Shown piece by piece: positions 4,939 to 43,759 of a DNA stretch of 64,000 bases; within the stretch, counting starts at the first letter, position 1; each line of letters opens with the position of its first letter. The stretch is from Candidatus Poseidonia sp. (lineage in GTDB: Archaea > Thermoplasmatota > Poseidoniia > Poseidoniales > Poseidoniaceae). Position numbers and translations under genes: made by a program. The stretch spans positions 1-64,000 of the forward strand of contig JADHPT010000006.1 of assembly GCA_016778305.1 (NCBI GenBank), in the 5' to 3' direction. The notes below the pieces were generated by a model. That model had not been told where the DNA came from. It did not search any database and saw only the letters and a list, made by a program, of their open reading frames with translations.

Positions 4939-5048
4939 GTTCGGATGTGTTTCCCTCGGAGAGGGAGTCCCTCTGGGCTCCCTCCCCTTGGGGTGTCAAA
5001 TGACGTTCACAACCGAAGCCTTTCAAGGTAGCATATGCTGGAACGACC

Positions 5049-5732
5049 ATGGACTCAGAAACCCACCCGCCAAAGGTTGTGGTCTTCGACTGCGACGGTG
5101 TGCTGGTAGATGCCGTGAGTTCGTGGCGAACGTTGCACGATGCCTTCGGGACGGACAACGGATTGAACCTCAACAGGTTCATTCGTGGCGAGCTCTCGGA
5201 CGTTGAGTTCATGCGATCGGATATTCAATTGTGGAAAGCAGTACGCAATCCCATCCATCAGGATGAGATATTCCGTGCCTATGCTGGTGTCAATTTGATG
5301 CAAGGTGCTCGAGAAGTCGTTCAGCGACTTCATGACGAGGGGATCTATGTCGCCATCGTCAGCGCAGGTGTTGATGTCTTTGTCAGTTCCATCGCAGCCA
5401 TGTTGAATGTTGAGGATTGGATTGCCAACGGTTTTATCTTCGACGAGGAAGGGTTCCTGAGCGATGAAGGTATTTGCCGACTCCACGCAAGCGGTAAAGG
5501 CGATATTATCGATCGTTTGCTCGACATGCAAGGCTTTGAGGCTGCAGAGTGTGTTTCGGTAGGAGACTCTGAAATGGATCTCTCCATGCACGTTCCGGGA
5601 AGTCGCTTCATCGGCTTCAACCCAACTCGAGAATCCTCTCTCGATGCCTTCGCTAAAGCCAACGTCCCCGTTGTTACGGTGAAAGATTTGCGTCAAATAT
5701 TGCCACTTCTGGGTCTTTCTCCAGAGGAATGA
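5049..5732 (+). CDS. HAD-superfamily hydrolase, phosphoserine-phosphatase-like
   Basis: Motif I 'VVFDCDGVLVD', motif II 'IVSAGVDVF', motif IV 'SVGDSEMDLSM'. Confidence 0.8.
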   Translation: MDSETHPPKVVVFDCDGVLVDAVSSWRTLHDAFGTDNGLNLNRFIRGELSDVEFMRSDIQLWKAVRNPIHQDEIFRAYAGVNLMQGAREVVQRLHDEGIYVAIVSAGVDVFVSSIAAMLNVEDWIANGFIFDEEGFLSDEGICRLHASGKGDIIDRLLDMQGFEAAECVSVGDSEMDLSMHVPGSRFIGFNPTRESSLDAFAKANVPVVTVKDLRQILPLLGLSPEE

Positions 5733-5739
5733 GTCAACT

Positions 5740-7341
5740 TCACGCGAAGGGAATCGAAATTGATTTGTGACTTTGCAAGTTGATGATCGTCAGCATACAG
5801 GGCTTTGGCTGGAATCCCAGCATGCGCTGATAGGAAGTTTGGTCCTGCCACGTACTTGAACACACCAAGGTCGTCCCTCTGAAATCGATGCATTCATGGC
5901 CGTGAACGTGACCTGTCACGAAGATGTCAGGGACTTCTCGTATGACCAATCCATCTTCAGGTTCTGGAGAAAGTGGCGTTTTCCCTCCCCATTGGGGGGC
6001 AAGATGGCGACGTCGTAACATTTCTCGCATGGCTTCTACAGGTTCAGCATAGGTAACCGTTCGCAAGCCTCCCACGAAGTCATCAATTGATTTACCATGA
6101 TAGGAAAGCAATCGAACGCCATGAAGTGAGAAATCACAAGGGTTCCCAACAAAGGTCGTCGTGTTGTAATCCCGTTGTATGTCTTTTTCAAAGGTCGGTT
6201 GAGGTTCTGCTGGTCGCACGGCATCGTGGTTACCTGGCAGCATGATACATTCAACCCACTCAGGTAATAATTCCAACAGGCGAGCAAATTCAGTATATTG
6301 TGCAAAGAGGTCTGGAATTGCTAATTCTTTATCTTGACCAGGATAGATTCCTACACCATCTACACAATCTCCGGAGAGGATGAGATATTTGATGGTCTTT
6401 GCAAGCGGGTCGGTGTTAAACCATCGTACCATCTTGTGCCATTGAGCTTCGAGAAATGTCTTGGAACCAACGTGAATATCCGATAAAAAAGCTACACTCA
6501 CACCAACTTCTGAACTCACTTTCTGATGGTTGGTTTCAAGTGGGAAATGCAAGTCATCAACGTAGAAAAGGTCGCCAGTTTGGCTGAATGTACCCGATAC
6601 GCCCAATACATCATCGGGCATCAATCCTGCTTCAATGATGGCTTCATGAGCTCGGTCACGATCATCTCCGCTACGCTTTGTCAATAAACAGGTCATTTCA
6701 CCCGTTTCATCCTCAAGACCCCACATGAGATGACCATTTTTTGTGTATCTCGGTTCATTGACCAAACCGATTGCAACAGCCTTGTTTTCATACCCTTGAT
6801 AGCGAGATGTTTCTGCTACCAAGCGGCCTATTTCTTGATGCTTGCGAGGCAATTTAGAATTTTGAATGATGAGTTTTCGTATGCTTTTCAGGCGGTCATT
6901 GAAACACGCATTGATGTCTGCCATTTTCCCTTCTGTGACGGAATTGCCAGTGATGTCAAAATGCACGGTAATATCACTGGGTGTTTCACTTGCATTCATC
7001 GAAAAATCGGCTTGATTCCAATCAGGTAAGTTATTGCGAAGGTGGATGTCGATTGGCTCGGGTTCATTGATGGGTGCGATCGAACGGGCGAGATCAGTCG
7101 GTGCTTGCGTGACGATGCGCTCCTTTGCGGGCAAGGCTGGTTGAGTCATTTGCCCTGCATGAGCAATCATTTGTTCCAATTGTTCTGCGCTCAACATCCC
7201 CGAGGATATGTTCAATGCAGATGCAGCATCAACGACTTCCAGTGGATTTTCAAGGTCGAGCAATTGTTGGTGAAGGGATTTTGGAGCCAGCAGTCTTTGT
7301 TGGCGTAAACGAGCCGCAATACTTGGCCACGGCTCACCCAT
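5740..7341 (-). CDS. polB: DNA polymerase D (family D, Pol II) small subunit DP1
   Basis: OB-fold plus calcineurin-like phosphoesterase motifs 'VAFLSDIHVGSKTF', 'SGDCVDGVG', 'LPGNHDAVRPAEPQP', 'VTGHVHGH'; 533 aa. Confidence 0.92.
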   Translation of the reverse strand: MGEPWPSIAARLRQQRLLAPKSLHQQLLDLENPLEVVDAASALNISSGMLSAEQLEQMIAHAGQMTQPALPAKERIVTQAPTDLARSIAPINEPEPIDIHLRNNLPDWNQADFSMNASETPSDITVHFDITGNSVTEGKMADINACFNDRLKSIRKLIIQNSKLPRKHQEIGRLVAETSRYQGYENKAVAIGLVNEPRYTKNGHLMWGLEDETGEMTCLLTKRSGDDRDRAHEAIIEAGLMPDDVLGVSGTFSQTGDLFYVDDLHFPLETNHQKVSSEVGVSVAFLSDIHVGSKTFLEAQWHKMVRWFNTDPLAKTIKYLILSGDCVDGVGIYPGQDKELAIPDLFAQYTEFARLLELLPEWVECIMLPGNHDAVRPAEPQPTFEKDIQRDYNTTTFVGNPCDFSLHGVRLLSYHGKSIDDFVGGLRTVTYAEPVEAMREMLRRRHLAPQWGGKTPLSPEPEDGLVIREVPDIFVTGHVHGHECIDFRGTTLVCSSTWQDQTSYQRMLGFQPKPCMLTIINLQSHKSISIPFA

Positions 7342-24875: not shown

Positions 24876-25005
24876 TGGTGCCGGGAGCGGGGCTCGAACC
24901 CGCGACCTTCGGATGTCTCAGACACCACAAGGGGCTTGCACGTCATACGATTGCCTTGGAGGCTGCCCTATGAGTCCGACGCGCTACCAACTACGCCACC
25001 CCGGC
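24876..25005 (-). tRNA. Elongator tRNA-Met (CAT), intron-containing, CCA encoded
   Basis: Acceptor GCCGGGG/TCCCGGC, T-arm GCGGG-TTCGAGC-CCCGC, anticodon CAT at 24970..24972; intron 24915..24968 after A37. Confidence 0.92.
24915..24968 (-). other. 54-nt tRNA intron with canonical bulge-helix-bulge junctions
   Basis: Exon CUCA pairs intron UGAG (4-bp helix); 3-nt bulges UA|G and AC|A; outer helix GGCA/UGUC. Confidence 0.9.
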
Positions 25006-39671: not shown

Positions 39672-41333
39672 TTATTCTTCTTCGTCGCTTTGCATGATGT
39701 TCAAAAACTCGTCAATATCGACAACACCATCGCCATTCTCATCGGCTTTGTGGAAATAGGTTCGGACTTCCATGGGAGTCAATTCAAGGCCAAGGCCCTG
39801 GGTGAGGGCGGACCTGAATTCGCTCAAGGTCAGGTGATTTTTCCGGCCAACATCTGCGGAACGAAACGAGATGTAGAAGCGTTCTGACGCTTCTGGCGTT
39901 GGGTTTCTAAATCGGGCTTTGAACGCAGTGAACGGTGTGACACGGGCCTCCTCGAGGACGTGGCGACGACCGTATGCCAACCACACCACGACGCCGAGGC
40001 CCATGGCACCAGCAGCGCCGATAAGCGCATTCTCTCCGATGAGCCAGAGCAGGATAATACCTGTTGCAGCACCGTAAATTTGAGGCAGTGGATAGAGGGG
40101 AGATTTGTAGGGAGGATTCCAACTGTGATGAGGACCTGCATGGCGCATGACGACCACAGATGCGTTGATGGCCACGAAGACCATGATGTTGAATCCTGAC
40201 GCAAGTTCTGCAATGGCGTGTACGTCGATGGTCAAGATGGCAGTTGCCATCATCACTCCGGTGATGATGATGGGCCAGTGGGGCGTTTCATAGGTGGGAT
40301 TCAAGTCTTCAAGTTTTGATGGGAGAAGGTTATCCCTGGCCATGGCAAATAGGAAGCGGGAGGCGGATAGGACACCAGCAAGAGCCATTGAGGCCATGGT
40401 GACAATGGCTAACAGGGCTGCAATCACTCCAACGGTGCTCCCAGCAACTTCATCAGCGAATACGTAGATTGGATTTTCAATCGCGTGGGTGGGGTCCTTC
40501 ATGTGCCAGCCCGTCGGGAGAACGGACACCATCACGAAGGCAACACCAGCGTAGAGAATGGTAGCTACCAGGAGCGAGGTAAACATGCCGCGTGGGATGT
40601 TCTTCTCCGGATCCATGACCTCTCCACCAATAGCTCCTACCTTGATGGCGCCAGAATAGGCGACAAAGACAAGGGCGGCAGCCGTACCCATTTCTGGACT
40701 CAAGTAGTCAACATTGGTGACAGGTTTGGCCAAATCAGCCTCACCGCTCAACAGGGCCATGATACACAATCCCAGGAGGAAAAGAACGGCGGTACCAACG
40801 ATTGGTGTCTGCACCTTCTTGATTTTCTTGACCCCTGTAATGTTGATGATCACAATGAACGTAAGAAGAACCAGCGCCACTGTAATCGGGTTGACTTCCA
40901 CACCAAGGGCAGCAGTCACCACTTCAAGATAGGCGGCAAATCCTATCAGAGCAAATGCAGATTTGAGCATAAAGGATGCGAACAGTCCCAATCCGCTGAT
41001 GGTTCCCATGAGCGAACCATAAGTCCGTTCCATGTAGATGTAAACGCCACCGGATTGGGGCATTGCACTGGCGAGCTCTGATTTTGAAAAGGCACCCGTT
41101 AGGACCACAGAGGCAGCCAATACGAAGGCAAACCACATGCCGTCACCTGCGACTTCTTGAGCGAAGGCCGGGAGAATGAACAAGCCAGAGCCCAGCATTG
41201 AGGACAAGGAGAGAATCACTAAGGTGGCGAGTCCTATGGTTCGAGAGAGTGTCCCTTTGATCTCTTCAGAAACAGCCCGCACATCGCCCGAGGCTACGCC
41301 TTTCAGTATGTTTTCTACAGTTTCTTTTGCCAT
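39672..41333 (-). CDS. APC-superfamily amino acid permease with C-terminal EF-hand pair
   Basis: 'GLATLVILSLSSMLGSGLFILPAFAQEVAG...' 12-TM APC permease; C-terminus 'ADENGDGVVDIDEFLNIM' is a canonical EF-hand loop. Confidence 0.9.
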   Translation of the reverse strand: MAKETVENILKGVASGDVRAVSEEIKGTLSRTIGLATLVILSLSSMLGSGLFILPAFAQEVAGDGMWFAFVLAASVVLTGAFSKSELASAMPQSGGVYIYMERTYGSLMGTISGLGLFASFMLKSAFALIGFAAYLEVVTAALGVEVNPITVALVLLTFIVIINITGVKKIKKVQTPIVGTAVLFLLGLCIMALLSGEADLAKPVTNVDYLSPEMGTAAALVFVAYSGAIKVGAIGGEVMDPEKNIPRGMFTSLLVATILYAGVAFVMVSVLPTGWHMKDPTHAIENPIYVFADEVAGSTVGVIAALLAIVTMASMALAGVLSASRFLFAMARDNLLPSKLEDLNPTYETPHWPIIITGVMMATAILTIDVHAIAELASGFNIMVFVAINASVVVMRHAGPHHSWNPPYKSPLYPLPQIYGAATGIILLWLIGENALIGAAGAMGLGVVVWLAYGRRHVLEEARVTPFTAFKARFRNPTPEASERFYISFRSADVGRKNHLTLSEFRSALTQGLGLELTPMEVRTYFHKADENGDGVVDIDEFLNIMQSDEEE

Positions 41334-41444: not shown

Positions 41445-42860
41445 TCATTCGCCCAAATGAACGATCACTTTCATTTCAACGGCGATGGGGGTCGGAAGTG
41501 CATCGATGGCGAGAGTCGTACGAGTGGGACCAATCTTACCCAGAGTCTGGGCCCAAACGTCATTGTATCCCTTGAAATCACGCTTCATGTCCACGAGGAA
41601 GGTTGTCACGTCAACGACTTGGTCCATGGAAGCACCGGCCTCCTCGACGATTCGCTTGACGTTGTTGACCACAGCATGTGTTTGTGCTTCGATGTCGTAA
41701 TCCAAGGGTTCACCATTCTCATCGTGAATTGGCCCACCTGGAATGGCATTGGTACCGGGCTGTCGCGGTCCAACGCCAGAAAGGAAGAGCATGTTTCCTA
41801 CCTTGCGTGCATGAGGATATGCCCCGACGGGTTTTGGTGCAGAATCCGTGTTGACTGAACCTTCGGCTTCGGTAGGTTCCCAAAGGTCGGGACCCGAGGG
41901 TGTCTGTTCAATGACAGGGTTTTCTTCAGTTGTATCGCTTTCATCGACCGTGTCAAGGACGCCCCGTTCTCCGTGGAAATACTCAACGTCGTCCTCGTCA
42001 TATTCCTTGTCCCCGGCGCCTGATGGCGTCGGGTCAATGGAAACCACGGCACCACCTGCGCCGTGAATCGGTTCGTAGGCGAGTACCTCGCCAGTGAGAT
42101 CGTTTCTGTTTCCGTTCATCGCTGAAAGCCACCACATGGGTTTGAAGGCAACAACCTTCTGCACGCGTATCTGTCGCTGAATCGTGCGGGAGAGTTGACC
42201 GACATCCTCCAATCTTCCTTGCTTGAGGAATTCAAGGATTTTCAGATTCCATTCGTCATCCTTGAGCGAGTGGATTTTATCATCCTCGGGCTGGATAAAA
42301 TCGGTAAACATTCGATTGGAAAGCGACATTGCTGTCACCGCTACAGCACGCCGACCTTGTGCCTTGATCACGTCGAGGCAGGATTTAGCGAGAACGGTCG
42401 TCTCGCTACGATTTGCGTACATGTTGGACGATACAATCACTGCAGGTATGGCGTTGTCGGGATTGAGCAGGGTGAGCGCAACAACCGAACCCACGTCGAT
42501 TGGGAATCCCTTGTAGTTCACACAACGGCTCTGAAGTCCTCGCTTCCTGTTGGCATCATCCCAAGCATGTGCAAATTCTTGGTCAATGTTGAATGAATAA
42601 TTGATTGACCCCAGGTCGTGGAAGTCATGGTCCACCATCACCCACTCTGGGTTCGGGTCTGATTGGATTTGGTGTCCAATGATTGACGGCCAGGTGGTTG
42701 AATAGATGACCAAAAGATCTGCATCCAATTCCTTGATGCTTTGAGCTGCCGCATCAAACGCATCCCTCAAGCGTTGCCAACCTTCGTTTTGGTCAGGGGC
42801 AAGCACGGTGTGGGGGTGGACAGGAACCACGAATGAACCGACCACGCGCCCTTCGGTCAT
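41445..42860 (-). CDS. Fusion: LigB-type class III extradiol dioxygenase-like domain (apparently lacking active-site residues) + C-terminal RidA/YjgF/UK114 domain
   Basis: 'VGSFVVPVHPHTVLAPDQNEGWQRLRDAF' LigB-like; C-terminus 'VGNMLFLSGVGPRQPG...VVNNVKRIVEEAGASMDQVVDVTTFLVDMKRDFKGYNDVWAQTLG...GPTRTTLAIDALPTPIAVEMKVIVHL' RidA. Start set at MTEGR (ATGA overlap). Confidence 0.82.
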   Translation of the reverse strand: MTEGRVVGSFVVPVHPHTVLAPDQNEGWQRLRDAFDAAAQSIKELDADLLVIYSTTWPSIIGHQIQSDPNPEWVMVDHDFHDLGSINYSFNIDQEFAHAWDDANRKRGLQSRCVNYKGFPIDVGSVVALTLLNPDNAIPAVIVSSNMYANRSETTVLAKSCLDVIKAQGRRAVAVTAMSLSNRMFTDFIQPEDDKIHSLKDDEWNLKILEFLKQGRLEDVGQLSRTIQRQIRVQKVVAFKPMWWLSAMNGNRNDLTGEVLAYEPIHGAGGAVVSIDPTPSGAGDKEYDEDDVEYFHGERGVLDTVDESDTTEENPVIEQTPSGPDLWEPTEAEGSVNTDSAPKPVGAYPHARKVGNMLFLSGVGPRQPGTNAIPGGPIHDENGEPLDYDIEAQTHAVVNNVKRIVEEAGASMDQVVDVTTFLVDMKRDFKGYNDVWAQTLGKIGPTRTTLAIDALPTPIAVEMKVIVHLGE

Positions 42861-43759
42861 GCATCCCCCTCCTCGTGTGCGTGGCAAGGCCATTCAACAA
42901 CTGCATTACCGGTTCCAATGATGGTGCCGTAGCCGTGTAGGATCGCAGGATAGTTAGGGACGTCGAGGGTTGAAAGAAGCCATGAAAGTCCTCCTCCGTC
43001 ACTCTCAGCGATGGCTTGTTCAGTGAATTCTGGCATTTCATCGAGGATTCGCTGGGCTTGTCCGGTTCGCATGTAATCGATGATTCGCATGTCCCAAAGG
43101 TGCATGGCATGGCTGGTAATGTGTTCTTTGCTCATGTCTTCGGGCACTTCGGATTCGGTGGTGAAGTGGCGGTGGGAGAGAGAATTGCTCGCAAGGACCA
43201 CCACTCGCTTGCCGCTTGCTTCAATGGCTCGTCGTGTGACCCGTCCCAATTCGACCATGATTTCTTGCATGACTTCAACGGAGTAATATGCGGTGGAGCG
43301 GTTACTCGAAAGTACCACCATGGGCTTGTCCCACTCAGGATTGAACAAGTGACCGGTCGTGATGGTCCCGTAATCGACGCGGAAATCAGGATTTTCCATC
43401 ATTTTTACCGGCAAACCTGCTGAGGCTGCTTCGTCATGAATTGCTTTAGCGAGTTCCACATCGATGTTCAAGTCGTAGTGATATCGGAATAAGTTTGGAA
43501 AGACTGGATCGACTGAGAGCCCTTCAAAATGAGGAAGGCCAAGAAAGTGGGTTCCAATATAGGTCTGCCAGTGGGGCGAAAGGACGACGATCGCATCGTA
43601 TTCAATGTCGGCGAGTGAGGCTCGCAAACGTTCGTATCCCCACCTGAGTTGCTCCCAACCACCTTCAGCGACAGGTTCGTTTTGAGGGGGGTTTTCAGCG
43701 TACACCAAATGAGGGGGATGTGGGGCGATGCAGCCTGCAACGATTTTTCCCTTCACCAT
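42857..43759 (-). CDS. LigB-type class III extradiol dioxygenase (2-aminophenol 1,6-dioxygenase-like)
   Basis: 'GCIAPHPPHLVYAENPPQNEPVAEGGWEQLRWGYERL', 'DAIVVLSPHW', 'VLASNSLSHRHF', 'AESDGGGLSWLL'. Confidence 0.82.
   Translation of the reverse strand: MVKGKIVAGCIAPHPPHLVYAENPPQNEPVAEGGWEQLRWGYERLRASLADIEYDAIVVLSPHWQTYIGTHFLGLPHFEGLSVDPVFPNLFRYHYDLNIDVELAKAIHDEAASAGLPVKMMENPDFRVDYGTITTGHLFNPEWDKPMVVLSSNRSTAYYSVEVMQEIMVELGRVTRRAIEASGKRVVVLASNSLSHRHFTTESEVPEDMSKEHITSHAMHLWDMRIIDYMRTGQAQRILDEMPEFTEQAIAESDGGGLSWLLSTLDVPNYPAILHGYGTIIGTGNAVVEWPCHAHEEGDA

Follow-up and report, generated by a model that had tools for sequence, protein, structure and literature searches.

We studied a stretch of 64,000 nucleotides from Candidatus Poseidonia sp. 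(contig JADHPT010000006.1, positions 1 to 64,000; the whole stretch is called the window below), in which a gene on the negative strand, at 39672..41333, encodes a 553-residue protein that joins an APC permease to a C-terminal pair of EF-hands. Judged by the ORF call, Pfam, AlphaFold2 and Foldseek, the product is an APC-superfamily amino-acid permease, with amino-acid transport as its predicted function. On balance, we favour the interpretation that the tail is a cytosolic Ca2+-responsive accessory domain, which would bind calcium and thereby tune transport.

The transporter core was matched by PF13520 (AA_permease_2) at residues 33-432 (40038..41237, negative strand) with 129.1 bits against a cut-off of 27, and a search of the window's whole genome with this family returned this gene as the only one. 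The best NCBIfam match was TIGR00909 (2A0306 amino acid transporter subfamily), whose score of 193 bits lies under the curated cut-off of 556.8, and membership of that subfamily was rejected. The AlphaFold2 model, built on an alignment of 55 relatives (mean pLDDT 81.7), consisted of an APC core, a short linker helix at 467-476 and four EF helices; the core adopted the APC/LeuT fold with 12 transmembrane (TM) helices, and Foldseek matched it to ApcT, AdiC, LAT1 and CAT structures. The top fold match, 6f34_A (GkApcT), had 24% identity and, by target length, a TM-score of 0.83; BasC came next, together with LAT-type and CAT transporters. GkApcT (PDB 5oqt/6f34), a bacterial CAT homologue, was also the top sequence match (E 1.7e-33) and shares the fold over residues 28-459, but the matched chains, 461-471 residues long, end at the core and lack an EF-hand tail. 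A scan for promoters and terminators gave signals no better than chance.

The last ~70 residues form the EF-hand pair, matched by PF13499 (EF-hand_7) at 486-548 (E 2.4e-13, 50.7 bits against a cut-off of 30) and delimited with the help of the model to residues 480-549 (39687..39896, negative strand). In the model this segment is a helix-loop-helix repeated twice, as in EF-hand pairs, with helices at 480-492, 503-513, 520-530 and 540-549 and a short strand in each loop; a PDB sequence search with the tail returned the calmodulin/troponin C family (E 1e-8 and weaker). The preliminary description had proposed an EF-hand fused to an APC permease in an archaeon, with a canonical 12-residue loop preceded by a degenerate first EF-hand. 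Both peptides that it quoted were present in the C-terminus of the ORF, Pfam matched both domains, and the two loops proved to be of the kinds described; its further suggestion of a calcium-gated or calcium-stabilised transporter stands as a candidate reading. Loop 2, DENGDGVVDIDE (residues 531-542; 39708..39743, negative strand), is of the canonical Ca2+ type, with conserved Ca2+-site residues, and is a putative Ca2+-binding site; DENGDGVVDIDEF was the sole match to PROSITE PS00018 in the translated ORFs of the window (36,957 aa in all). Loop 1, DVGRKNHLTLSE (residues 494-505; 39819..39854, negative strand), follows the family motif DxGxKNHLTxxE and is degenerate throughout the family: DVGRKNHLTLSEF has G at position 3 and K at position 5, and is not a canonical Ca2+ loop. 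Between TM12 and the EF pair, the model and the conservation pattern placed a linker helix, TPFTAFKARFRN (residues 466-477; 39903..39938, negative strand), whose pLDDT by block (57-69) was comparatively low. Its hydrophobic moment was no higher than that of shuffled sequence (6043 of 10000 shuffles), so that an amphipathic 'locking pin' was discarded as more than an analogy.

For the comparison of C-termini we used 89 full or near-full relatives, hand-picked rather than random, of which 57 carried the tail and the other 32 stopped at about residue 458-482. In the 57 tails the ligand positions of loop 2 were strongly retained (D1 in 57, D/N3 in 55, D/N/S5 in 55, G6 in 57, D9 in 49 and E12 in 53), with 53 matching PS00018 strictly and 4 missing the pattern; the peculiar loop 1 was conserved as well (D1 in 52, K5 in 36, H7 in 48, T or N at position 9 in 55 and E12 in 52). 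The linker residues T466 and P467 were found in 54 and in all 57 of these homologues, respectively, and F490, F527 and H528 were among the conserved tail residues outside the loops. Close pairs with unsaturated synonymous change gave a dN/dS of about 0-0.2 for the tail, which is under purifying selection, looser than that on the core. The architecture survey that the preliminary description had suggested, carried out on Thermoplasmatota and Planctomycetota samples, bore it out on a wider scale: the tail was found order-wide in Poseidoniales, in both families, at 42-95% identity. Ca. Poseidoniales were formerly known as Marine Group II. Among the matches listed, the closest copies, both from Ca. 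Poseidoniales, were 95% identical (L120) and 90% identical (L121, Poseidonia sp.). The fusion occurred twice in G060, a single-contig genome of 2.1 Mb, and also in the record AG-422-I20 (L188), whose name looks like that of a single-cell genome.

The 12 TM helices put both ends of the protein on one side of the membrane, and the predicted inside loops held 16 K/R against 2 in the outside loops, which places both ends inside. The positive-inside rule, together with the topology and homology of APC transporters, thus predicts a cytoplasmic tail.

The nearest outgroups were planctomycete permeases with Usp and PTS_EIIA_2 domains (best about 40-43% identity; core identity of the copies compared, 34-43%), followed by Thermoplasmatota permeases that carry a PTS_EIIA_2 domain or Usp domains in the same C-terminal position, as sampled in 12 planctomycete and 20 Thermoplasmatota loci. 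Such APC permeases, known from archaea and bacteria, likewise have a cytoplasmic domain after TM12; they differ from the window protein in the domain itself and would be expected to respond to another signal, and Pfam found neither Usp nor PTS_EIIA_2 after TM12 in the window protein. AA_permease-Usp fusions in archaea are described in passages of PMC12159084. Since the closest relatives outside the order carry PTS_EIIA_2-like and/or Usp domains in this position, the EF-hand pair has the look of a cytoplasmic regulatory module that took the place of another.

In trees of the 'quick' type without bootstrap, some of whose outgroup branches were long, tail presence required seven changes on the core-only tree, the Poseidoniales permeases formed one clade (SH-aLRT 100) when outgroups were included, and EF against all other tails required eight changes on the outgroup-rooted tree. 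Eight changes fit one gain on the Poseidoniales stem followed by seven losses, and repeated gain is disfavoured because the odd loop 1 motif is common to the tails; an ancient, order-wide tail with a single origin and at least seven later losses is thus consistent with the trees. The losses, at least seven, were clean, right after TM12, and left the transporter core intact, as would be expected of an accessory regulator; the repeated loss also implies that the domain is dispensable. The tail-less copies do not form a separate paralogue family, as they were scattered among tail-bearing copies in at least seven places of the tree. Core positions that changed along with tail loss were the cytoplasmic N335, R333 and E342, in 3-5 of 7 loss clades; with so few sites no docking surface is evident, and this candidate was dropped as too weak. 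A planctomycete-labelled bin (L174/L226) held an EF version that was 47% identical to the window protein and branched inside Poseidoniaceae, apparently as the result of archaea-to-bacteria transfer, a mis-binned contig being less likely. The L174 copy (4950-6716, positive strand), on a contig binned as Planctomycetaceae, adjoins genes for threonine dehydrogenase (tdh)-like, kbl-like and 3-keto-disaccharide hydrolase proteins.

Upstream of the permease gene, Pfam identified a LigB-like domain fused to Rid (PF01042; 41445..42893, negative strand) and a LigB-family extradiol-dioxygenase-like protein (42857..43759, negative strand). Among 80 related loci these neighbours accompanied the permease in 70 (LigB-Rid) and 67 (LigB); in several Thalassarchaeaceae the LigB-Rid (YjgF) match was shorter, as if the LigB part stood alone. 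Further along were an asparaginase-II-like protein and an aldehyde dehydrogenase whose best model, 2-hydroxymuconic semialdehyde dehydrogenase, scored below its cut-off; in some Thalassarchaeaceae the genes for these two proteins lay immediately upstream. In 2-aminophenol-type meta-cleavage pathways, a dehydrogenase of this kind occurs alongside paired LigB proteins and a Rid-family deaminase. Because the neighbours recall such a pathway, the substrate may plausibly be an aromatic amino acid or amine. The tail-less permeases L124, L154, L156 and L173 retained the same neighbours, which indicates that presence of the tail is not tied to the pathway. Elsewhere in the window, at 24879-25005 (negative strand), a tRNA gene call of 127 bases is longer than usual and probably contains an intron.

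If the tail is a Ca2+-responsive regulator, its loop 2 EF-hand would bind Ca2+ and that of loop 1 would serve as a non-binding structural partner. A rise in cytosolic Ca2+ would change the shape of the pair and shift the T-P linker helix after TM12, which in turn would speed or slow the inward-facing gate. We suggest, with moderate confidence and as part of this explanation, that the permease would be a proton- or ion-coupled amino-acid importer; as sensor-like domains occur at the same place on related importers, calcium may set the rate of amino-acid uptake. This working mode is likened to that of the EF-hand domain of the mitochondrial ATP-Mg/Pi carriers, which, in the passages of PMC7611774 that deal with it, captures an amphipathic helix in the presence of Ca2+ and frees it onto the carrier in its absence; one isoform lacks the EF-hand domain (same source). 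The SLC25 carriers (ATP-Mg/Pi, AGC1/2), so far as the source text goes, resemble the window permease as solute carriers with a covalent EF-hand regulatory domain, but they differ in their unrelated fold, in the N-terminal position and 4 or 8 EF-hands of the domain, and in belonging to a eukaryotic organelle. The parallel with the ATP-Mg/Pi carriers holds in principle for the layout of the Poseidoniales permease (carrier, T-P helix, EF pair, tail-less versions); Pfam found no SLC25 mitochondrial-carrier domain in the permease and its fold is APC, so that the analogy is one of mechanism alone. We found no earlier account of EF-hands at the end of an APC permease in the open-access literature searched, within the text that its sources offered. 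A review of transporter tails (passages of PMC6597760) observes that the termini of prokaryotic transporters, those of the APC superfamily among them, are as a rule shorter or nearly absent; passages of PMC7016017 describe fusions of EF-hands with several domains of bacterial membrane proteins and enzymes. For Poseidoniales subgroups, the archaeal survey PMC9258230 notes calcium-binding families in protein modules 135 and 45; these belong to the same archaeal order, and the passages on them describe neither a permease fusion nor a transporter context.

The retention of ligands in loop 2 together with the constant degeneracy of loop 1, and the other regulatory-type domains at the C-terminal place in relatives, would count for a Ca2+-responsive regulatory tail; against it speak the 4 of 57 tails that depart from PS00018, the low model confidence and ordinary hydrophobic moment of the linker, the small number of core positions that change with tail loss, and the repeated loss itself. 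The pair might instead be permanently metal-loaded and serve the stability or dimerisation of the permease, an explanation we take seriously while considering it unlikely: assembly-type EF domains also have one of two loops degenerate, the EF domain of the aspartate/glutamate carrier is a dimer interface according to passages of PMC7611774, and loss of the tail is tolerated, yet the nearest relatives have regulatory-type domains at this position, and a structural-only pair could do without Ca2+ ligands this strict if Mg2+ were enough. Rather improbable is a tail that acts, with Ca2+ or without it, as a docking platform for a partner such as another EF-hand protein or the LigB/Rid enzymes, and so channels substrate. 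The four tail-less permeases with unchanged neighbours show that linkage needs no tail, although the conserved LigB and LigB-Rid neighbourhood, together with F490, F527 and H528, would suit such a role.

Seawater contains ~10 mM Ca2+, and a tail exposed to it could be a loaded structural element. The preliminary description had allowed for an extracellular, purely structural tail; this placement is contradicted by the 12-TM model, the positive-inside counts and the cytoplasmic ends of APC homologues, and we regard it as very improbable. We give hardly any credence to the idea that the EF-like motif is spurious or the gene chimeric. The window's assembly is a 33-contig draft, in which an artefact could arise, but the fusion is kept in both families with a low dN/dS, its presence in the single-contig G060 and in AG-422-I20 argues against an assembly chimera, and a PS00018 match arose by chance in 9 of 20,000 shuffled tail sequences.

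Several other proteins of the same genome (G000) carry EF-hands. A NuoL-like complex I subunit (Proton_antipo_M; L207:985-3552, negative strand, C17) has an EF-hand pair inserted at ~residues 435-540, in a loop after 'GAVIHEVHH' that is ~ten residues long in 6hum_F; its fold prediction (pLDDT 55.7) was too poor for use. The EF segment was present in every genus-mate included in the class survey and in four genomes from a single genus of the order's other family, and many other Poseidoniales had NuoL-type matches without it. A 661-aa multi-pass membrane protein of unassigned family (L206:539-2521, negative strand, C1) ends in an EF-hand pair; frames of 653-661 aa with a related EF segment, resembling the NuoL insert, recur across Poseidoniaceae. 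In a ZnuA-like metal-binding protein (L008, C19), EF-hand motifs and His/Asp-rich repeats precede the domain, and a 604-aa protein (L002:199-2010, negative strand, C22) has, besides a weak double zinc-ribbon match, hydrophobic segments and two EF-hand pairs of canonical type, with similar frames recurring in genus-mates. EF-hand_7 matches were found in 59 of 59 relatives. The EF-hand pairs in several proteins of one genome raise the likelihood of a Ca2+ role that extends across the genome. That Poseidoniales have a cytosolic Ca2+ network, with EF modules grafted independently onto the permease, NuoL and another multi-pass protein, is a tentative and rather doubtful extension; if true, Ca2+ would coordinate import and proton pumping, and archaea would possess a calcium second-messenger system.

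For eukaryotic mitochondrial carriers, passages of PMC7611774 document the control of a secondary transporter by a covalently attached EF-hand domain. Poseidoniales, a marine order described as globally abundant in passages of PMC6461757, is uncultured, and it keeps an EF domain on what is the sole AA_permease_2 transporter of the window's genome. Together with the sister proteins bearing Usp/PTS_EIIA_2 and the natural tail-less orthologues, this permease offers a ready comparative system that bears on cytosolic Ca2+ signalling in archaea and on the exchange of regulatory modules among transporters.
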